From assembly GCA_017480195.1 (NCBI GenBank), contig JAFVBE010000005.1, positions 1 to 55,139 of the forward strand: a DNA stretch of 55,139 nt, in the 5' to 3' direction. The DNA comes from Lachnospiraceae bacterium. GTDB taxonomy: Bacteria; Bacillota; Clostridia; Lachnospirales; Lachnospiraceae. The notes beneath the pieces were generated by a model. It was given only the letters and a program-made list of their open reading frames with translations, ran no database searches and had not been told where the DNA came from. Both the position numbers and the translations under genes were made by a program. This document shows, in pieces, positions 11,453 to 20,072 of the stretch; position 1 is the stretch's first letter, and every line of letters starts with the position of its first letter.

Positions 11453-12328
11453 ATGAGAGAGTATGTGCTGATTGGTGATTCGACAGAGGATCTGGACATA
11501 AATGTTGCTAAGAAACTTGATGTAAAGCTTATTCCGTTTTCGTATTCAATAAATGATGAGGTTATTAACTATTATCTTGATGAAAGAGATGGAAATATAT
11601 CAGATTTTTATGACAAATTAAGAAAAGGAGCAATGCCTGTAACTTCACAGGTTAATCCTGATACATATAAAAAATATTTTGAGAAGGTAGTTGAGGAAGG
11701 CAAGGATATATTATATCTATGCTTCACATCCGGCTTAAGCGGTGCATACCAGTCGGCTGTACTTGCTGCGTATATGGTTATGGAGAAATATGCTGATTCA
11801 AGGATAGAGGTTGTTGATTCTCTTGTGGCAAGTGTTGGAGGTGGAATACTTCTATATGAGACTGATAAGAAGAAAAAAGAAGGTCTAAGTCTTGATGAGT
11901 TAAAAAACTGGATTGAGGACAATCGCCTTAACACAAGACATTGGTTTATGGTAGAGGATTTATTCCATTTAAAGAGAGGCGGAAGAGTAACCACCGTAGA
12001 GGCAGTAGTCGGAAGTGCTCTTAAGATAAAGCCGATATTAAGCTTAGATGAAGATGGAAAGCTTATTATAAAGTCTAAAGCAAGGGGAGTTGGAAAGGCT
12101 CTTGACTATCTCGTTGAGCGTGTAGAAGAGGAGATTTCTGATTTCAGTAAAGTCTGTTTTAATATAGGAAATGCAGACGCTATGGAAAAGGCAGAAAAAA
12201 TAAAAACAATGCTTATTGAGCGCGGAGCGAAAGAGGAAAACATATTTATATCACCGATTGGACCGGTTATTGGCTCACATGTAGGTCCGGGAATGGCTGC
12301 AATAGCATATATTAAGGGTATATATTAA
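11453..12328 (+). CDS. DegV family fatty-acid-binding protein
   Basis: This DegV-fold cytoplasmic protein has the N-terminal strand VLIGDSTEDL, the TSQV motif (PVTSQVNPD), the FTSGLSGAYQSA loop and a C-terminal IGPVIGSHVGPG motif. These residues line the pocket for a single fatty acid; in related Firmicutes such proteins (FakB) hand fatty acids to the kinase FakA. No fakA is visible here. The ATG at 11453 is preferred to 11447 because GGAGG (11441-11445) sits 7 bp before it but only 1 bp before the other. It is the last gene of the wall operon. A second DegV gene is at 31198-32067. Confidence 0.88.
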   Translation: MREYVLIGDSTEDLDINVAKKLDVKLIPFSYSINDEVINYYLDERDGNISDFYDKLRKGAMPVTSQVNPDTYKKYFEKVVEEGKDILYLCFTSGLSGAYQSAVLAAYMVMEKYADSRIEVVDSLVASVGGGILLYETDKKKKEGLSLDELKNWIEDNRLNTRHWFMVEDLFHLKRGGRVTTVEAVVGSALKIKPILSLDEDGKLIIKSKARGVGKALDYLVERVEEEISDFSKVCFNIGNADAMEKAEKIKTMLIERGAKEENIFISPIGPVIGSHVGPGMAAIAYIKGIY

Positions 12329-12332
12329 GATA

Positions 12333-12349
12333 TTTAACATTTTTGTAAC
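12333..12349 (+). promoter_or_regulatory. WalR-like box upstream of the -35
   Basis: TTTAAC (12333-12338), N5 and TGTAAC (12344-12349) match the WalR consensus TGTWAH-N5-TGTWAH at 11 of 12 positions. The box ends 6 bp before the TTGACA of the wall hydrolase promoter, where activation is expected. Assignment rests on the consensus known from Bacillus and relatives. Confidence 0.45.
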
Positions 12350-12355
12350 AATTGC

Positions 12356-12384
12356 TTGACATCTCACTTGGTAAATGTTACAAT
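12356..12384 (+). promoter_or_regulatory. Promoter of the SleB-type hydrolase gene
   Basis: TTGACA (12356-12361) and TACAAT (12379-12384) have a 17-bp spacer, about 70 bp before the ATG. A perfect inverted repeat TTGTAATT/AATTACAA (12421-12437) lies in the leader and could be an operator or a small hairpin. Confidence 0.75.
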
Positions 12385-12389
12385 GCTTT

Positions 12390-12406
12390 TGTAACATAAT
12401 TGTAAC
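12390..12406 (+). promoter_or_regulatory. Perfect WalR-like box downstream of the -10
   Basis: TGTAAC (12390-12395), ATAAT, TGTAAC (12401-12406) matches TGTWAH-N5-TGTWAH exactly. It lies over the transcription start, a repressing position in Bacillus. Together with the box at 12333 it suggests control by a WalKR-type wall-stress system. Confidence 0.55.
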
Positions 12407-12454
12407 AAATAAAAACAAATTTGTAATTTAATTACAAAAACAGGTGGGAATGTA

Positions 12455-13879
12455 ATGAGTAATAGAACAAGGCTTAAGCTGAAAGACCTTAGTATGTATA
12501 TGAAAAGAGAAGTATTTAATAGCAGATACATAGTAAGAAATATTTTAGTAGCCACAGTATTGATAACAGTTTTAACTGTTGTTTACGGATTGGGAAGCTT
12601 AGTAAGGACTAATGATAAGAATGGAGAGGTTGAGGCAGTTGCTGAGGAGACTTCTATAGAAGGAGCAGAGGAGACAGCTTCAATCAATATAGATGCCCCA
12701 AGCACAATAAATGCAGAATCAATAAATGTGCTTATGGCAAATGTAGATGCCGGAAGTGAGGCAGGCGTTGAGGCTGTAGATGCTCAGATGATAGCAGAAG
12801 CAAGCAAGGAATTTGATGAAAAGTGTGTTTCGATATCAGATAATGTTAATATCAGAGAAGACTCAAATACAGACTCAGTTATCGTTGGTAAGATGAACGA
12901 TGGTGTCGTAGCTGATATTATTGCATCGGATGGAGAATGGTTGAATATATCCTCGGGCGATGTAACAGGATATGTTAAATCAGAATATGTTAAGACCGGA
13001 AGCGAAGCATATACATATGCACAGGATTTTTACTCAGTTACGGGTTCGGTGACAGAGGATGGTGTTAATATAAGAAGTGGTGCATCAATTGATGCCGAGG
13101 TTATAGCCGCTGCATTTACCGGTGTTACATATGAGGTTGATAAGGAAGAGACAGAAGGCTTAGATGGATGGGTTTGTATAAGTGTTGATTCAGATAACAA
13201 AGGATATGTAAGTGAGGATTACATAGAGGTGACAGAAGGATATCCTGTGGCTGTCTCATATACAGATACAGAAGTGTCATCAAATGATGAGGACAAGCAG
13301 TCGGAATCAAAGACAAAGGATAATAAATCAGAGGATGATAGCAAGAACGCTGTAAATAATAGTTCTAAGACTGAAACACAGACAACTCAGGAGGATAAAA
13401 AAGAAATAACTACGACAGAAGCTACAACTGAGGCTGTGACAGAAGCTGCAACAGAGTCAACTACGGAGGCTCCGGCAGTAGAGGATACAAGCACTCAGAC
13501 TACAGTAGCAGTAACTGCCAGAGGAAGCATAGCTTTAAGCGAGGATGATATTAATCTTATGGCAGCAGTTATGACACTTGAGTGCGGCAATGAGTCATAC
13601 GAGGGACAGCTTGCCGTAGCAAATGTAATACTGAACAGATTACAGTCAGGAAGCTGGGGAAGTACCATAAGTGGTGTCGTATATGCACCTAATCAGTTTA
13701 CTGTAGTTAATCTGCCGAACTTTAATTCATATATATCACCAAGTTGCTTGCAGGCTGCAAGAGATGCCTGTGCAGGTACGAATAACATAGGTGGTTATAT
13801 GTCATTCAGACCGGTTTCCAATGTTGACACATCTACACTTGGAAGCTATACAATAATAGGAAACCATTGCTTTTTCTAA
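12455..13879 (+). CDS. Membrane-anchored cell wall hydrolase (SH3-SH3-SleB/Hydrolase_2)
   Basis: This 474-residue protein has a single N-terminal transmembrane anchor (about 29-48), two bacterial SH3 domains (about 128-185, NVNIREDSNTDSVIVGKM, and 195-265, GVNIRSGASIDAEVI), and a low-complexity Thr/Glu spacer (about 275-350, TTEATTEAVTEAATESTTEA). A C-terminal SleB-like domain (about 360-474) has its catalytic Glu in MTLECGNES, then LAVANVILNRL and APNQF. SleB-family enzymes are lytic transglycosylases that cut glycan strands. The anchor and long spacer suggest a vegetative wall enzyme reaching into the peptidoglycan rather than a spore germination enzyme. It is transcribed alone from a promoter flanked by WalR-like boxes and ends at a strong terminator. 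Confidence 0.87.
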   Translation: MSNRTRLKLKDLSMYMKREVFNSRYIVRNILVATVLITVLTVVYGLGSLVRTNDKNGEVEAVAEETSIEGAEETASINIDAPSTINAESINVLMANVDAGSEAGVEAVDAQMIAEASKEFDEKCVSISDNVNIREDSNTDSVIVGKMNDGVVADIIASDGEWLNISSGDVTGYVKSEYVKTGSEAYTYAQDFYSVTGSVTEDGVNIRSGASIDAEVIAAAFTGVTYEVDKEETEGLDGWVCISVDSDNKGYVSEDYIEVTEGYPVAVSYTDTEVSSNDEDKQSESKTKDNKSEDDSKNAVNNSSKTETQTTQEDKKEITTTEATTEAVTEAATESTTEAPAVEDTSTQTTVAVTARGSIALSEDDINLMAAVMTLECGNESYEGQLAVANVILNRLQSGSWGSTISGVVYAPNQFTVVNLPNFNSYISPSCLQAARDACAGTNNIGGYMSFRPVSNVDTSTLGSYTIIGNHCFF

Positions 13880-13904
13880 AAAAGCCCCAAGCTATAAATT
13901 ATGG

Positions 13905-13942
13905 ACAGGAAGGGATTCGTAAATCCCTTCCTGTTCTTTTTT
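13905..13942 (+). terminator. Rho-independent terminator of the SleB-type gene
   Basis: A perfect 13-bp stem (ACAGGAAGGGATT, 13905-13917, against 13922-13934) with a 4-nt loop is followed by TCTTTTTTTT. Confidence 0.9.
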
Positions 13943-13955
13943 TATCTGTATAACT

Positions 13956-13986
13956 GTTCACACCAAAATAATCTTAATTCACAACA
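13956..13986 (+). promoter_or_regulatory. Likely LytTR binding site upstream of the regulator operon
   Basis: GTTCACACCA (13956-13965) and ATTCACAACA (13977-13986) are direct repeats with a 21-bp period, the two-helical-turn arrangement typical of LytTR dimers. They lie upstream of a -10 like TATAAT (14026-14031) before the LytTR gene. The same motif with the same spacing occurs at 16212-16242, so autoregulation is inferred. Confidence 0.55.
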
Positions 13987-14076
13987 TCTTTATTGTATTT
14001 TTATATTACTGTTCCGATAAATAATTATAATAGGTTTATTTTTATGCTTAAATTTATCTGACTTGGAGGATGGAAA

Positions 14077-14787
14077 ATGACTGTCGGCATATGTGATGAT
14101 GAAAGAGAAATAAGGACTTATATAGCAGAGAAAATCAGGCTGTATGATGCAGAAATTGATACTGTTTTATTTGAGGGTGGAGAGGAATTATTAAGTTATA
14201 GTGATAAGCTTGATATATTATTCTTAGATATTCAGATGTCCGGTATAGATGGTATGAAGACAGCAGAAAAGCTTCGCCAAAAGGACGAGTCCCTAATAAT
14301 TATTTTTGTTACGGCTTTAGAGGAGTATGTATATAAGGCATTTGATGTCGGAGCGTTTAATTATCTTGTGAAGCCTATAGATAAGGTTAAATTCTATGAG
14401 GTGTTAAATAAGGCTGTCGCCAATGTAAATAATAAGCAGGAGAATGAAACATCCGCAGGTAAAAGTGACAGAGTAATGCTTATTAATTCTCATGGCATTC
14501 ATACGAATGTCAGAATAGATGATATAGTTTATGCCGAAGTATTAAACCGCAAGGTTACTCTGCATATGACAGACGATACCTACGAATACTATGGTAAGCT
14601 GTCAGACCTTGAGGCTCTTGCCGGAGATTCGTTTTTCAGGGTTCATAGGGCGTATTTAATCAATATGAAATATGTCCGTTCGTACAATGGGGACAGTATA
14701 CGGCTTACCAAGGGAAGTGTGCAGATGTCAAAGGCAAAATACAAGGATTTTGTAAAAGCATTTTTAAGATATACCGTAAAGGAATAA
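14077..14787 (+). CDS. LytTR family response regulator (AgrA/LytR type)
   Basis: This 236-residue cytoplasmic regulator has a receiver domain with acidic pair Asp7-Asp8, phosphoacceptor Asp51 (LFLDIQMSG), Thr79 and Lys99 (LVKPI), then a LytTR DNA-binding domain (about 130-235) with VYAEVLNRKVTLHM and FFRVHRAYLINMKYV. It is separated from its kinase gene by 3 bp. LytTR regulators control bacteriocin, competence, virulence or wall-lysis genes through direct repeats. Matching repeats precede this gene and the gene at 16300. GGAGG lies 7 bp before the ATG. Confidence 0.93.
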   Translation: MTVGICDDEREIRTYIAEKIRLYDAEIDTVLFEGGEELLSYSDKLDILFLDIQMSGIDGMKTAEKLRQKDESLIIIFVTALEEYVYKAFDVGAFNYLVKPIDKVKFYEVLNKAVANVNNKQENETSAGKSDRVMLINSHGIHTNVRIDDIVYAEVLNRKVTLHMTDDTYEYYGKLSDLEALAGDSFFRVHRAYLINMKYVRSYNGDSIRLTKGSVQMSKAKYKDFVKAFLRYTVKE

Positions 14788-14790
14788 TAT

Positions 14791-16206
14791 ATGGATAAGT
14801 ATAGTGCCATAATTGAATTAATACTTAAGCTGTTCTTAAAACCACCTCTTTACATTGCTGTATTTGCATCCTGTATGATATTCGGTATGTGGATAAAACC
14901 GTTTTTGCATAATAAGAAGGCTTGTCCGTATGTGGTTTTAGCATATACATTAGCAATATTTTATCTACAGCTTGTTCCGTGGAATACCAATAAAATCTGG
15001 GACAGACTTCTCGCACCGTCATTAGCATTTGCAGTTATGTATTTTATGGATAAAAGAAATATGAAGCAGAAGATATTCCTGTGCAGTATCTATGAACTTA
15101 TTACATGGCTGATTGCAGGTATAGTATCTGAGCTTAGGCTTTTTCTGGGGGATATAACCGATACGATAGAGCTTTTCAGGACAAGCGTTCCTGCGATATT
15201 GGCATATTTAATTATAGAACAGATATTATATATTGCGCTTTTTGTACCGATGGTATATCTGTCTGTTAAGCTGCTAAAGAATGTGTATAGATGTAAGTAT
15301 GAGGATTTAAGCCTAAATGAGCTTATACTGCTTATGATACCTCTTATTACCCTTATACTCGTACGCCATATTATAAGTGCATATTACAGCCTGTGGAATG
15401 AGGGTATCGCAAATGGAAGCATACAAGAGAATATTCACGCAAATATATTCAGGTTTTTGTTCTATATAGGAGCTTATATTGCTGTGATTTTGTTCATTAC
15501 CACATATCAGAATATTAAGAATTATGAGGAAAATAAAAAGCTTGAGAAGCTGTTAAATGACAGGATAGAGGACACAAAATCACATATAAATGAGGTTGAG
15601 AAGCTATATGTGGATATGCGCAGTATAAAGCATGATATGGCTAATCATATACAGGTGCTTAAGGGCTTGGTGGAAAAGAATGATATTAAAGAGGCAGAGG
15701 ATTATCTGGCGCATATGGACAAGCAGGTACAGGAGATTGGACTATCCATAAAAACAGGCAATCCGATTACAGATATAATCATATCTGAATTCGATAAAAG
15801 ATTTAAGACTGATAATATCAGCTTTGAGAGTTCATTCTATTATCCTGATAATTCCAAGATTGATGCCTTTGATATAAGTATTATACTTAATAATTCCCTG
15901 CAGAATGCCTATGAAGCCGCCTTAGGTCTTGATAATTCATATGTTAAAATAAGGTCATTTATGAAAAAGAATATCTATATCATAGAGGTAAAAAACAGTT
16001 TTACAAAGGAGCTTACAAAGGACGAGGACACAGGACTTTATTTAAGTGCTAAGGATGGGGATAATCATGGATTTGGACTTAGGAATATTAAGACTGTTGC
16101 GGAAAAGTATTATGGTGATATAGATATAGAGATTATTAGTGAGGATGTGCATGACAATAAAATTTATGATGAGTTCAGGTTATTGATTATGATGCAACTT
16201 GCATAA
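14791..16206 (+). CDS. Sensor histidine kinase, AgrC-like with GHKL ATPase domain
   Basis: This 471-residue membrane kinase has about six or seven transmembrane helices in its first 245 residues and no extracellular domain of size, as in peptide-sensing AgrC/ComD kinases. A coiled coil leads to the phosphoacceptor His281 (SIKHDMANHIQVLKG). The GHKL ATPase has an N box (NNSLQNAYEAA) and G box (HGFGLRNIKTVAEKYYG). The gene starts 3 bp after the regulator gene. No peptide pheromone gene (AgrD-like) or processing protease (AgrB-like) is adjacent, so the signal is unknown. Confidence 0.92.
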   Translation: MDKYSAIIELILKLFLKPPLYIAVFASCMIFGMWIKPFLHNKKACPYVVLAYTLAIFYLQLVPWNTNKIWDRLLAPSLAFAVMYFMDKRNMKQKIFLCSIYELITWLIAGIVSELRLFLGDITDTIELFRTSVPAILAYLIIEQILYIALFVPMVYLSVKLLKNVYRCKYEDLSLNELILLMIPLITLILVRHIISAYYSLWNEGIANGSIQENIHANIFRFLFYIGAYIAVILFITTYQNIKNYEENKKLEKLLNDRIEDTKSHINEVEKLYVDMRSIKHDMANHIQVLKGLVEKNDIKEAEDYLAHMDKQVQEIGLSIKTGNPITDIIISEFDKRFKTDNISFESSFYYPDNSKIDAFDISIILNNSLQNAYEAALGLDNSYVKIRSFMKKNIYIIEVKNSFTKELTKDEDTGLYLSAKDGDNHGFGLRNIKTVAEKYYGDIDIEIISEDVHDNKIYDEFRLLIMMQLA

Positions 16207-16211
16207 AAATT

Positions 16212-16242
16212 ATTCACAACATATTAAAAATCATTCACTACA
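16212..16242 (+). promoter_or_regulatory. Likely LytTR binding site upstream of the 16300 gene
   Basis: ATTCACAACA (16212-16221) and ATTCACTACA (16233-16242) are direct repeats with a 21-bp period, matching the pair at 13956-13986. The second repeat would overlap the -35 position of a promoter with -10 TATATT (16260-16265), where a LytTR activator normally binds. Confidence 0.6.
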
Positions 16243-16299
16243 AATCTATTTACATTGCTTATATTTTATCCGAGAATAAGGATAAAGGAGGGCAAAGCA

Positions 16300-17232
16300 A
16301 TGGGAATGAATGTATCAATGAGCAGCTTTAATTCACAATATAGTGTGAATAAAACTGTGGGAGCAGACAGTAAAGAGACTTCTAAGATTAAAGGCGCAGA
16401 TAAGCCAACATGGAATCCGAATAAGGTCTATAAATATCTCGAGGATATGAACGATGGCTTTCAGTCGTATAAAAAGAAAGCAGTAGCTTATTATAATTCG
16501 AGGATATCTGAAGAGAATGAGGATGGCGCCATAAGTGTAGATGAACTAAAGGAGCAGATTAAGGAATGGTTTCCGGAATATACGCTTACATCATCAAAAC
16601 CAAAGGATGTCGTACAGGGTAAATTCTATCTGTACATAGATGACAGCCAGCTTAAGAAGATGGCTTCCGATGCTTCATACAGGGCTAAGGTATATGGTCT
16701 TATGGATACGGAACTTCAGGGTAAGAAGGGATATACCTTACAATACAGTGACGGAAAGAATGTAACCTCACATCTTACAGGCAGTATATTCTCACTCTGT
16801 GAGGAGAATAGGAAATATGCCGGTGCTGACGGTATTCCATATCTTGGAAGCTGTACCTCAGACCATCCTGTGTCATCATCGAACTCGCATTGTCAGGTCA
16901 GGAGTATGAGCTATTTATACGACAATATTGACCCTGCTAAGTCGGGGGCTAAGGAGAGGAAGGCAACCGCAGCTAAGCTTGAGGCAAAGAGACTTGTGAA
17001 ACATAATGAGAAGAAAAAGGCTGAGAAGAAAGCTACCGAGAAAAAGCTAAAGGAAAAGAAACTAAAGGCAAAGGAAGCTGAAAAAGAGGCAATCGAAAAA
17101 GAAGAACTTAAAAGGGCTTCTGATGATAATGACGGATTTAATGCAGGACTTTATGAAGGATATGGTAATAAGGCAGAAAAACTTGAAGATGGTGACGGAA
17201 GGTATGGTACGAATTTGGATTTAAAAGCGTAG
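16300..17232 (+). CDS. Unrecognised protein downstream of the LytTR system, possible regulon member
   Basis: I do not recognise this 310-residue protein with certainty; it resembles poorly described Lachnospiraceae families such as DUF6033. It has no signal peptide or membrane segment. The start (MGMNVSMSSFNSQYSVN) is Ser/Asn rich. A central globular part (about 35-215) has three Cys in CEENRKYAG, LGSCTSDHPV and SHCQVRSMSYLYDN. A highly charged Lys/Glu/Ala helix (about 220-275) and an acidic Gly-rich tail follow. The ATG at 16300 was chosen because AAAGGAGGG lies 6 bp before it. The LytTR-type repeats in its promoter suggest control by the adjacent two-component system. Export by a leaderless route is possible but not shown. 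Confidence 0.7.
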   Translation: MGMNVSMSSFNSQYSVNKTVGADSKETSKIKGADKPTWNPNKVYKYLEDMNDGFQSYKKKAVAYYNSRISEENEDGAISVDELKEQIKEWFPEYTLTSSKPKDVVQGKFYLYIDDSQLKKMASDASYRAKVYGLMDTELQGKKGYTLQYSDGKNVTSHLTGSIFSLCEENRKYAGADGIPYLGSCTSDHPVSSSNSHCQVRSMSYLYDNIDPAKSGAKERKATAAKLEAKRLVKHNEKKKAEKKATEKKLKEKKLKAKEAEKEAIEKEELKRASDDNDGFNAGLYEGYGNKAEKLEDGDGRYGTNLDLKA

Positions 17233-17319
17233 ATTTAAAAATTAATAAAATATAGGTTAAGTTTTATAGACTTAAATCCGATATAGAATTAAAGAATATT
17301 TTTCTTTGTTTTTGCAAAA

Positions 17320-17416
17320 GGATTTGCAATTATTACTTCAGGGATGAGAAGCTTTCGCGGCATTGTATTTATCTTATTTTATTCTTCTCGTGATTTTATT
17401 ATTCGTATTGCAATCC
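17320..17416 (+). other. Possible structured leader before the 17447 gene
   Basis: GGATTTGCAAT (17320-17330) pairs with ATTGCAATCC (17407-17416) with one bulge, enclosing GAGAAG (17346-17351) and CTTCTC (17384-17389). The fold ends about 20 nt before the ribosome binding site of the next gene. It may be a cis-regulatory RNA or simply an intergenic palindrome. No clear terminator or promoter was found in the gap, so read-through from the 16300 gene is likely. Confidence 0.35.
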
Positions 17417-17446
17417 GGTTTTATAGATTGATATGGAGGTTTATGT

Positions 17447-18418
17447 ATGGCGATTACAATTAATGTCGGTCAGAGCAATGTAAACAATGCTTTGAATGGG
17501 AAAGTAGAGAATAACGGTAAAAAAACGATATTTGCAGGAAATCTTAATGCTATATCCAATACACAGAGCTTGGTCGAGGAAAAAAGAAATCAGGCGAAGA
17601 AACAGGCTATGAAGGTTATCGGCGATGCGTGGGACAAGGATAATAAGATATCAGCAGATGTTCAGAAGAAGCTTGATAAGATAGACTCGAATAAAAGTGA
17701 GATAAATGATTATGAGTCCAAGATAAGAGATTTAGAGGATAGTAAAAAAGAATTACAGGAAAGCTACGGTATAGCTGATGATTCGGAGGAGCAGAAGGAT
17801 TTGGAGCTTCTTGAGAAATATCAGAATTATAAGAACGGCTCTAAGATTGAAGTGTTTACTAAGGACGAGATAGCAAGACTTAAGGAGTTGCAGGATACTC
17901 CAAGAACCGAATATCAGAACAAGGTGCTTGAATTAAATGACGCAGTTGGAGAATTTAATAACGAAATCCGCAACAAAAAGCTGGATAATGCAGCTATGAG
18001 TGAAGATATCAAAGATACTCGTATGGCGCAGCTTGCTTCACACGATATGTTAGACGCTTATGATGCGGCAGACAAGATAATGGAAGCATCAAGCAAGGAG
18101 ATAATCGGAATACTTACTAATGAAATGAAGTCTTCGATAGACGAGAAGTTTGCAGAGGAGAAAGAAAAGGCAGACAAACTCGCAGAGGAAAAGGAAGAGA
18201 AGGAAGAAAAGCTTGCCGAGGCGAAGGAGAAGAAAGAAGAACAGGAAGCACTTATCGAGCAGAGTATCGAGGCATCAAGGCTCGAACAGGATGTGAAGAT
18301 GCAGACACAAGCTTATGATAATGTAGCTGATGTACAAAAAGACATACAGAAGATTCTTAAGGACAATAATCTTGTTGATGAAGACTTAAAAGGAATTAAA
18401 ATTGACTTTAATTTCTAA
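17447..18418 (+). CDS. Unrecognised coiled-coil protein following the LytTR system
   Basis: This 323-residue protein lacks a signal peptide or membrane segment and is not one I recognise. It starts MAITINVGQSNVNNALNGKV, again Asn/Ser rich like its neighbour. It is largely helical, with charged heptad-like segments at about 78-110 (KSEINDYESKIRDLEDSKKE) and 240-285 (Glu/Lys-rich). It has no Cys. GGAGG lies 7 bp before the ATG. It follows the 16300 gene with a 214-bp gap and no clear terminator between them, so both may be expressed under LytTR control. It could be a structural or secreted partner of the first protein. A bidirectional terminator follows. Confidence 0.7.
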   Translation: MAITINVGQSNVNNALNGKVENNGKKTIFAGNLNAISNTQSLVEEKRNQAKKQAMKVIGDAWDKDNKISADVQKKLDKIDSNKSEINDYESKIRDLEDSKKELQESYGIADDSEEQKDLELLEKYQNYKNGSKIEVFTKDEIARLKELQDTPRTEYQNKVLELNDAVGEFNNEIRNKKLDNAAMSEDIKDTRMAQLASHDMLDAYDAADKIMEASSKEIIGILTNEMKSSIDEKFAEEKEKADKLAEEKEEKEEKLAEAKEKKEEQEALIEQSIEASRLEQDVKMQTQAYDNVADVQKDIQKILKDNNLVDEDLKGIKIDFNF

Positions 18419-18470
18419 TTTGAGTCGGATGGATTTTCGAGTGTTGTATTAGCTAATTTTCATATATAAT

Positions 18471-18503
18471 AATGGGAAGGACAGTTATATCGTCCTTCCC
18501 ATT
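18471..18503. terminator. Bidirectional terminator between convergent genes
   Basis: AATGGGAAGGAC (18471-18482) and GTCCTTCCCATT (18492-18503) form a perfect 12-bp stem with a 9-nt loop. It serves the + strand coiled-coil gene and the - strand AMMECR1 fusion gene. Confidence 0.8.
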
Positions 18504-18509
18504 TGCTGT

Positions 18510-19937
18510 TTAAAAGTGTCGTACTACCTCAAATCGCTCTAACTGTATATCTGTCTCTGTGACTGATATGCCACCTTTTCGCTTGGCTATGGCAATCTGT
18601 TCATCAACAGTTTTTACATTGTCAAGATTCGGAAGCAGAAGTCCGCGGCGCATACCCTTGCTGACTATAACACCATATCTTTTTACATCTAATTCATCTG
18701 CTGATGATATTTTTTCACGCTCGCCAAGTATATCTACACTGTATTCGATATAATTTAATTCATCAGGTGTGACAGGTTCAAAGCGGTTATCCAATGAACA
18801 GGCACTTATGGCGTTACAGATAATCTCTTCGGCTATACAGGATTGGGTGGCTGCTATAGTACCTATACAGCCTCTTAAAGAGTCACCTATATGGAGGGAT
18901 ACAAAGGCCCCTGCCTGTCTACCCTCAAGCTCTGATAATAATGCTTCGTCTCCCGATTTTAGTATCTGGCTTATGGCAGATGCGTAGTTTAATTTACTTT
19001 TGTTGTTTACATAATATTCCGTAGAAGCCCTTGCAAGCCTTACGAATAAATCTTCACTTGCGCGTTTTTCTTCAAGTCTTTTTGCTTCCTTCTCTGTCCG
19101 CTTATCCAAGAAAGCCCTGTCTTCATTTGGTTCCTCATTATCTACGATATAAGAACATATACCATAGCCAACCCCTGTTACATCCTCATGTGACATACGG
19201 GTTATGGATAAATTCGTCCTGTCAAGTGCGCCTGCCATCATTACGAATGAGCGGTGTCCGCATTCAGCGGCAGTATCTAAAAAGCTTTCATTAAATGACA
19301 GAAGTTCATCAAAATCACCGCGTCCCATCACATCCATTATTCTCTCATCATATACAGGTCCTTCCTCGACAAAACCATATGGCCCATATTCCTTTAATTT
19401 ATGTGATAAATCCCCACTTGCTATATATACTACTCGCCTGTCAAGCTCTGTAGCTGCTTTTTTAATGGCTTGTCCCAACTCATAATGTGTAGCAAGAGAA
19501 AAGCCTGAAAGACCTATCCTTACTAATTTGAAATCAGTGTATTTCTGTGTGATGAAATATAGCGGTACCATCGTTCCGTGATCTAATGAGGCCTCCTTTT
19601 CTCCTAACTTGCCTGCTGCAATATCAGCATCAATAGCTTGTCTTATTATCGCATTTACAAGCTCCCTGTCGTACTCTATATGAAAGCTTACCTCTCCGGC
19701 ATCAAACCTTCTGAATGAGCCATCAGCATATTTTCCCGGAGATATATGAAAATAATCCCCATACATCACGCTGTGGGGAGAAGATATAATGATGGTATCG
19801 GGAGCAAGCTCACATATCATATCTGCGACATTTTCATAAGCTTTTTTAGTTGCTTCAATCTGTTTCTCGCTTCCTCTTCCTATCTCTGGTACAATCATCG
19901 GAGGATGCGGTACCATAAATCCGGCTACAATTCCCAT
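18510..19937 (-). CDS. AmmeMemoRadiSam protein: MEMO/LigB-like domain fused to AMMECR1
   Basis: This 475-residue fusion has an N-terminal extradiol-dioxygenase-like (LigB/MEMO) domain, about 1-270, with putative metal-site residues in HPPMIVPEI, SSPHSVMYGD, SLDHGTMVPL and SGDLSHKL. The C-terminal AMMECR1 domain, about 300-475, has the RGCIGT core. In many bacteria AMMECR1, MEMO and a radical SAM protein are encoded together and are thought to modify an unknown substrate. No radical SAM partner is adjacent here. GTGAGGTG precedes the ATG. It is transcribed divergently from the flavodiiron gene. Confidence 0.88.
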   Translation of the reverse strand: MGIVAGFMVPHPPMIVPEIGRGSEKQIEATKKAYENVADMICELAPDTIIISSPHSVMYGDYFHISPGKYADGSFRRFDAGEVSFHIEYDRELVNAIIRQAIDADIAAGKLGEKEASLDHGTMVPLYFITQKYTDFKLVRIGLSGFSLATHYELGQAIKKAATELDRRVVYIASGDLSHKLKEYGPYGFVEEGPVYDERIMDVMGRGDFDELLSFNESFLDTAAECGHRSFVMMAGALDRTNLSITRMSHEDVTGVGYGICSYIVDNEEPNEDRAFLDKRTEKEAKRLEEKRASEDLFVRLARASTEYYVNNKSKLNYASAISQILKSGDEALLSELEGRQAGAFVSLHIGDSLRGCIGTIAATQSCIAEEIICNAISACSLDNRFEPVTPDELNYIEYSVDILGEREKISSADELDVKRYGVIVSKGMRRGLLLPNLDNVKTVDEQIAIAKRKGGISVTETDIQLERFEVVRHF

Positions 19938-20072
19938 AAAAACACCTCACTTTATAATCGTTTTCATAAGCGGCAAGATTAAATAACAATCTTTGATTCT
20001 CACTATCTGTTGCACTCATTGTAACATACTTTATTCAAAATTAAAATTACTCTTGTTATCATTTGTTTTTTA

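Follow-up and report, generated by a model that had tools for sequence, protein, structure and literature searches.

A LytTR–kinase module with sigma-28-type promoter boxes, a probable signal-gated branch of the flagellar programme in Lachnospiraceae

What does a two-component system control when it stands beside two proteins that lack a signal peptide? The question is raised by a 55,139-nucleotide stretch of DNA from Lachnospiraceae bacterium (GenBank assembly GCA_017480195.1, contig JAFVBE010000005.1, positions 1 to 55,139, forward strand), which we refer to as the window; its genome measures 2.4 Mb at a completeness of 85%. The module of interest lies on the plus strand and comprises genes for a LytTR response regulator (14077–14787), a sensor kinase (14791–16206), and two leaderless proteins that we name 16300 (16300–17232) and 17447 (17447–18418) after their first positions. 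A previous reading made from the letters alone (the sequence-only reading) took these genes for a self-contained signalling module producing a co-regulated protein pair, possibly exported by a leaderless route. Our analysis suggests that the module is probably part of the flagellar (sigma-28) programme, as a branch gated by a signal, and that the flagellar type III system most likely exports its products as late substrates.

Repeat pairs and sigma-28-type boxes

Direct repeats with a period of 21 bp precede both the regulator gene (GTTCACACCA ... ATTCACAACA, 13956–13986) and gene 16300 (ATTCACAACA ... ATTCACTACA, 16212–16242), on the plus strand. They are the only perfect matches in the window to RTTCACNMCA-N11-RTTCACNMCA and lie exactly where the sequence-only reading had placed its RTTCACNMCA pairs. 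The feature that marks target promoters of a LytTR/AgrA-type regulator, ∼9-bp direct repeats with a period of 21–22 bp, is thus present. Allowing up to three mismatches, the window holds three matches to the double motif versus 0.42 expected, a number reached by none of 100 shuffles; single half-sites with at most one mismatch occur at chance level (35 vs. 36.1 expected in the window). Across the 2.4-Mb genome there are no other perfect matches and one match with a single mismatch, on contig C21; at three mismatches the genome shows no excess (16 and 7 matches vs. 23 and 28 for a reversed control pattern). The repeat count alone is partly circular because the pattern was derived from these very sites; conservation offers a more independent check. 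The second repeat pair has identical half-sites (locus L096) in the sister genome G013, whose regulator and kinase are 85% and 83% identical to those of the window, and in G024 and G019, with a regulator identity of 60%, a drifted pair, TTACAACA, with a period of 21 bp stands before the orthologous regulator (loci L032 and L033). The pair on contig C21 (L001:6137–6167, corresponding to G000:C21:30136–30166) is followed, by eye, by a sigma-A-like TATATT 28 nt after its second repeat, and it precedes an operon of an apparent M13 peptidase lipoprotein, an ABC permease and an ATPase (by eye), then a LytTR regulator and a kinase.

Alignment of regulator promoters revealed a second element on which the sequence-only reading was silent, YCGATAW, located ∼27 nt past the second repeat. 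The window has three boxes of this sigma-28 type, all on the plus strand. CCGATAA (14014–14020) lies 27 nt after repeat 2 in the regulator promoter. An imperfect box, CCGAGAA (16270–16276), lies 27 nt after repeat 2 ahead of gene 16300; it is the weakest of the three and is kept in L096. Gene 17447 has its own promoter of the form TAAG-N16-CCGATAT (17258–17284, with the −10 box at 17278–17284), and the L096 remnant likewise holds a CCGATAT within a stretch that partly matches it.

We listed 36 regulator relatives in 37 genomes of the genus and analyzed 20 loci together. YCGATA occurred within 150 bp upstream in 21 of 22 related-regulator promoters, compared with a mean of 1.2 and a maximum of 5 in 500 dinucleotide shuffles, and with eight of 122 other genes in the same loci that had an upstream gap of at least 80 bp. 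The spacing was equally regular: 25 of 28 regulator promoters had repeats with at least seven of nine identical bases and a period of 21 or 22 bp, located 26–28 nt before YCGATA (2000 base shuffles: mean 0.41, maximum 4; 17447-family promoters: 1/57). This set consists of promoters that have a box (L115, which has none, was left out here and from the −35 count given below) and includes seven distant promoters (L149, L164, L171, L172, L176, L182, and L183) picked from 14 for a visible box. When promoters were scored without such picking, 27 of 46 regulators had at least seven of nine identical bases at this geometry, and the misses were mostly close behind another gene or belonged to other LytTR types; on a tree of the 46 regulators, the 27 carriers of the layout were spread over several supported branches. 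None of the six other LytTR proteins encoded in the window's genome had both elements in this geometry; one of the six, L004, has TCGATAT and a 7-of-9 pair, but 45 nt apart.

The same arrangement recurs downstream from the kinase, where repeats are followed by NCGATA in 12 of 13 loci selected because a repeat was visible behind the kinase; the exception is the window, with CCGAGAA. In nine other loci of the 20, no separate site with repeats and box was seen for the cassette, as we call the small genes beside the regulator. In one locus, L110 (4508–5039), the repeats behind the kinase are gone and TTCGATAT alone is left, while both are found in the near-identical L111, a possible recent loss. 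Of the 52 genes of the 17447 family preceded by a gap of at least 80 bp, 41 carry YCGATA in their upstream region, compared with 35 of 460 other genes. In L147, L149, L164, and L182, LytTR-like repeats of the TGTCATGAA type (period 21) were seen by eye on the opposite strand, farther upstream of the sigma-28-like promoter of a 17447-type gene.

These boxes resemble known sigma-28 elements. For Lachnospiraceae, elements taken from Butyrivibrio fibrisolvens are given as −35 TAAA and −10 MCGATAa, and flagellin −10 boxes as ccgatat, tcgatat, acgatat, gcgatat, and ccgataa (PMC3720852, partial text). Boxes of the corresponding Clostridioides difficile factor, SigD, can be as loose as ACGAAAA (PMC3865298, partial text), so CCGAGAA may still belong to the sigma-28 type. 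We also considered an ordinary LytTR system with sigma-A promoters, with CGATA boxes that are coincidental or unrelated and with cytoplasmic proteins of an ordinary kind. LytTR-type repeats usually sit close upstream of the promoter as 9-bp units with a 12-bp spacer, and autoregulation from them is common (PMC6193735, partial text); the third pair, on C21, moreover precedes TATATT and not CGATA. Such a system would not predict the frequency of the box relative to control genes, its spacing from the repeats, the lack of this geometry in all six other LytTR proteins of the genome, or the strict association with FlhA described below (72/72), and we regard it as very improbable. The preferred sigma-28 interpretation has a consequence for the claim that the module is self-contained, which we do not uphold: Its promoters look sigma-28-dependent, and the module therefore appears to be wired into the flagellar programme.

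Cassette proteins and the flagellum

The window's genome has the flagellar background that this interpretation calls for. It encodes FlhA and two flagellins, with ACCGATAAAA and ACCGATATAT upstream of their genes, and a sigma factor comprising regions 2, 3, and 4 located behind cheB-A-W-C-D-like open reading frames (ORFs; by eye). This is the place of fliA in the family, at the end of the flagellar locus past the chemotaxis genes (PMC3720852, partial text). We then compared gene presence across 396 Lachnospiraceae genomes, drawn at a completeness of at least 90%. The 17447 family was present in 72 of them and FlhA in 202, and all 72 were FlhA-positive (hypergeometric p 4e-25); at the genus level, the family was found in 60 and FlhA in 144 of 280 genera (p 2e-21). 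Absences in these counts are soft, as the scan scored some of the first-look candidates in each genome, and one genome (G317) is represented by a partial FlhA match. Carriers of the 17447 family include the genomes of Roseburia faecis M72 and Lactobacillus rogosae ATCC 27753 (the latter presumably Lachnospira rogosae). DUF6033, the family to which 16300 is related, behaves in the same way: It was found in 41 of 117 relatives (40 over the cut-off), all 41 among the 91 with FlhA, and, in the same taxonomic family outside the genus, in 13 of 18 FlhA-positive genomes versus none of 18 others (Fisher p 7e-6).

The sequence-only reading held up in its signalling module, in which LytTR repeats precede the regulator gene as well as a downstream gene. 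Small cassette proteins stand beside the regulator in 18 of the 20 loci, with starts such as MSINGIG, MAMEITNNYSNY, and MRITTQMLN. The two loci without them are L102, at a contig end, and L096, a deletion remnant. In this remnant (L096:10182–10480, genome G013) the repeats, CCGAGAA, the ribosome site, and the MGMNVS codons are retained; the genes are lost, and the sequence differs until the 3′ flank. Six further loci (L201, L202, L205, L208, L209, and L210) were kept outside the counts; five have similar small genes behind the kinase by eye, and L209 is undecidable by eye.

The sequence-only reading could not assign the two proteins. This stands for 17447 (323 aa), which reached no Pfam cut-off, that of DUF6033 included, and no longer quite holds for 16300 (310 aa). 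The latter scored 23.1 bits against DUF6033 (PF19498; cut-off 25), or 27.3 bits with stretches in frame summed, matching over short stretches only, and we weakly assign it as a divergent DUF6033-like protein. The 17447 protein has a family of its own, with 146 relatives among genome contigs, most titled Lachnospiraceae (alignments A1 and A2); analysis of its loci covered the best 80 of the 146, of which 79 gave a 17447-family ORF, and L175 was omitted from A2 because of a stop within its stretch. Sequence searches of the PDB gave best E-values of 0.21 for 17447 (A2) and 0.1 for 16300 (A3). In PHROGs, 16300 had no match and 17447 weakly matched an entry of unknown function (E 0.0018); the NCBIfam matches were all weak and fell on long charged proteins (E ≥0.047).

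Scanning 36 of the 39 cassette proteins, including the window's two (three L108 proteins containing N were excluded), yielded 21 matches to DUF6033 and two to FliD_C (PF07195) at E ≤0.01. Among eight small proteins starting with MR that were scanned singly, four (L104, L164, L167, and L194) scored over the FliD_C cut-off; those of L097, L112, L174, and L183 were under it or unmatched, and neither window protein matched. A more distant branch, which came to light via 17447 relatives rather than via LytTR, is arranged as 17447-type gene, LytTR regulator, kinase, FliD_C-like gene.

Composition and termini set the cassette proteins apart from controls. Residues 2–30 have an S/T/N/Q fraction of 0.35 versus 0.18, and by hydropathy a hydrophobic leader is found in none of the 39, the window's two included, versus 30% of 127 controls; the sequence-only reading was right that both lack a signal peptide. 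Cysteine-free proteins make up 30 of 47 17447-family rows (with 17447 itself among the proteins that lack cysteine) and nine of 11 DUF6033 proteins, versus 52 of 353 soluble controls. We infer export from the promoter class, the co-occurrence with FlhA, the composition, and the company of FliD_C. The leaderless export proposed earlier thereby gains a concrete candidate route, the flagellar type III system, to which the promoters and the FlhA association point.

Alternatively, the LytTR system might switch on proteins of the flagellar class that remain in the cytoplasm and serve the flagellum as chaperones, assembly factors, or regulators. Charged leaderless proteins, sigma-28-type promoters, and strict co-occurrence with FlhA fit chaperones as well, and the three cysteines of 16300 are in keeping with such a role. 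On the other hand, the presence of one to five unlike proteins per locus and the loss in G013 are a better fit to axial or exported proteins, as are the scarcity of cysteine in the 17447 and DUF6033 families, the Ser/Asn/Thr-rich starts, and the FliD_C relatives in some cassettes. We consider a cytoplasmic role unlikely, though a serious contender.

Many cassette proteins also share a C-terminal tail, a hydrophobic residue, D, and a hydrophobic residue followed by one to three residues (19/39 vs. 21/902 controls). The same tail ends 24 of 78 17447-family proteins, nine of 11 DUF6033 proteins, and three of 25 MR-start proteins (chosen by start pattern, not by Pfam), which end more often in YFNFFR or YFNSRR. 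The window's proteins terminate in LDLKA (16300; C-terminus GTNLDLKA) and IDFNF (17447; C-terminus GIKIDFNF). In the looser form hydrophobic-[DN]-hydrophobic-x-small, the tail was seen to be common to unrelated leaderless families (cassette loci L096–L115 and L200–L215), and a 101-aa protein encoded two ORFs past the sigma factor in the flagellar locus (L197:9653–9958) ends in NFDIQI. We discarded the tail as a general mark of sigma-28 genes: It was found in nine of 28 versus 23 of 430, but six of the nine were MR-start genes of the same clusters and one was a LytTR regulator.

A tail of this kind could in principle be a signal. Kinases with six segments and a GHKL domain are often peptide sensors, and the AgrC-like kinase might sense a peptide cut from the tail of exported proteins, with the flagellum as exporter. 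The failure to see AgrB or AgrD nearby, the repeats before the regulator's own promoter, and the sharing of the tail by unrelated families would all suit such a loop. The tail is, however, similar from locus to locus and is also found beside BlaI-like regulators and in the small protein past the sigma factor, so a handling tag is likelier than a locus-specific signal, and the loop is the least probable explanation that we considered.

A candidate signal-gated mechanism

Taking the module as a branch of the sigma-28 programme, we propose the following. The membrane kinase would sense a signal and phosphorylate the LytTR regulator, which would bind the 21-bp-spaced repeats just upstream of the two promoters with sigma-28-type −10 boxes. 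Transcription would then depend on an AND gate, proceeding only where sigma-28 is active in the cell and the kinase has detected its signal. The first promoter would yield more regulator and kinase, giving positive feedback, and the second the DUF6033-like protein 16300; gene 17447 would be served by its own plain sigma-28-type promoter. The proteins made would count among the late flagellar class and be exported through the flagellar type III system.

Several observations weigh against this reading or narrow it. The box of gene 16300 reads CCGAGAA, not CCGATAA, and is one base off NCGATAW. An exact TAAA −35 element (spacing 15–17) occurs in two of 21 regulator promoters, and not in that of the window; the case for sigma-28 use therefore rests on the −10 box and its position, and scarcity of TAAA would fit a promoter that requires an activator. 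Repeats downstream from the kinase scored better against the regulator repeats of another locus in 10 of the 13 loci selected for a visible repeat, leaving a strict locus-by-locus matching of regulator and repeats unsupported. The counts and p-values overstate independence because the genomes share ancestry and include near-copy loci (L110/L111 and L112/L113). The three cysteines of 16300 depart from the habit of its relatives, and the tail pattern was defined after the tails had been seen.

The association with LytTR itself is limited. The sequence-only reading had named homologues lying mostly away from LytTR systems as a finding that would tell against it, and this is partly what we see: Of 79 loci with a 17447 relative, 63 have no LytTR gene within three ORFs and 16 have one, two of the 16 being orthologous loci of G024 and G019. 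LytTR ORFs numbered 16 of 429 near and three of 410 far, and we dropped the idea of a general LytTR linkage of the family. The fixed, co-regulated pair fared no better. Close relatives of 16300 occur in three other genomes without a LytTR gene in the stretches covered (one of them, L029, at a contig end), and 16300-type proteins were found in four and 17447-type proteins in 12 of 117 genomes, with the window's own counted in both. Finally, we examined eight BlaI-like genes that neighbour leaderless proteins, and five of them have NCGATATA boxes instead. These five, identified as BlaI-like by eye, are L030:3483–3872, L040:7261–7644, L200:11967–12371, L203:1487–1900, and L212:7386–7784, one of them with a TTTACACGTGTAAA dyad immediately upstream of the box.

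The flagellar link is thus wider than the LytTR link. LytTR is one of several regulators, and the BlaI-like genes appear to be a second regulator type acting on sigma-28-like promoters. Cassettes vary and can be lost, and one genome may hold several modules (G010 has five regulator matches), which together suggest an accessory, environment-facing role. More tentatively, we propose that flagellated Lachnospiraceae may export through the flagellum a large group of proteins not so far recognised as such (DUF6033-like, 17447-type, and mini-FliD), which share the tail [FYIL]-[DN]-hydrophobic-x-small and would be deployed on demand by LytTR–kinase or BlaI-like sensors on sigma-28 promoters.

If our reading is true, the flagellum of gut and rumen Lachnospiraceae, beyond being a motor and a source of flagellin, would release into the gut a varying repertoire of proteins under sensor control, a signal-gated secretory use of the organelle in common gut commensals. 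It would also place DUF6033 and its neighbours in a functional context for the first time, provide an instance of a two-component regulator acting on sigma-28 promoters, and suggest the short C-terminal tail as a handling tag open to testing.

Known systems and neighbouring features

The sequence-only reading had called the regulator and kinase genes correctly. The regulator (236 aa) has a receiver domain followed by a LytTR DNA-binding domain (Pfam Response_reg, 69.1 bits; LytTR, 66.3 bits), and the kinase (471 aa) has six hydropathy segments, a GHKL module (HATPase_c_5, 67.2 bits; SPOB_a, 34.7 bits), and H281 within a KHDMANH box. Such a regulator and a six-segment GHKL kinase are shared with AgrA/AgrC-type and other LytTR systems, as are 9-bp direct repeats with a 12-bp spacer before the system's own promoter (PMC6193735, partial text). 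The module differs from AgrA/AgrC-type systems in its sigma-28-type −10 boxes, in its leaderless DUF6033-like targets, and in having no AgrB or AgrD visible nearby. As also noted before us, AgrB-like genes are absent: six ORFs were scanned in 12455–19937, and none of them is of this kind. The ORF listing starts at 60 aa, so that an AgrD could hide beneath it; we ruled out an agr quorum-sensing system, as no AgrB was seen near the kinase. There was no Rfam match in 12000–20000.

A precedent for LytTR control of motility comes from C. difficile R20291, in which loss of AgrA lowers most flagellar genes, fliC and fliA included (PMC3754575, partial text). There, as proposed here, a LytTR regulator affects flagellar genes, but the whole flagellar programme falls in that mutant, and LytTR sites before sigma-28 promoters and leaderless cassette proteins are not reported in the available part of that source. 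NCGATAW −10 boxes are also found in the sigma-28 promoters of flagellin genes in Lachnospiraceae (PMC3720852) and in those described in C. difficile (PMC3865298). What sets the regulator promoters apart is the LytTR repeats ahead of them and, in most cases, a missing TAAA −35. The presence of FlhA in every genome with the 17447 family is likewise in line with sigma-28 systems, although the cassette genes are not known flagellar genes. DUF6033 itself accounts for 16300 and 20 others of the 36 cassette proteins, whereas cassette matches to the C-terminal domain of FliD (HAP2) cover part of FliD_C only, in proteins of ∼220–240 aa. Export of non-flagellar proteins by the flagellar type III system, as in Campylobacter, also involves flagellum-tied proteins without a signal peptide; here the host is Gram-positive, the promoters would be dedicated and signal-gated, and export is a prediction. 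We found no paper naming DUF6033 in the open-access library searched, and no description of a LytTR-gated sigma-28 cassette system in open-access titles and abstract starts among the matches listed. The parts are of known kinds, and their combination appears new.

Some neighbouring arrangements are worth recording. Two sister genomes share a block of a GGDEF gene and a 17447-type gene (L032:6151–8907 and L033:6157–8926); with the regulator as reference, the block of one genome is inverted compared with that of the other. In L112 (4133–6280) and L113 (3215–5653), a regulator of the same subfamily has no adjacent kinase, and a protein of 715–812 aa with a cassette-like start is found instead. 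In the window, the module is directly followed on the minus strand (18510–19937) by a two-domain LigB-AMMECR1 protein, which is 92% identical in G013.

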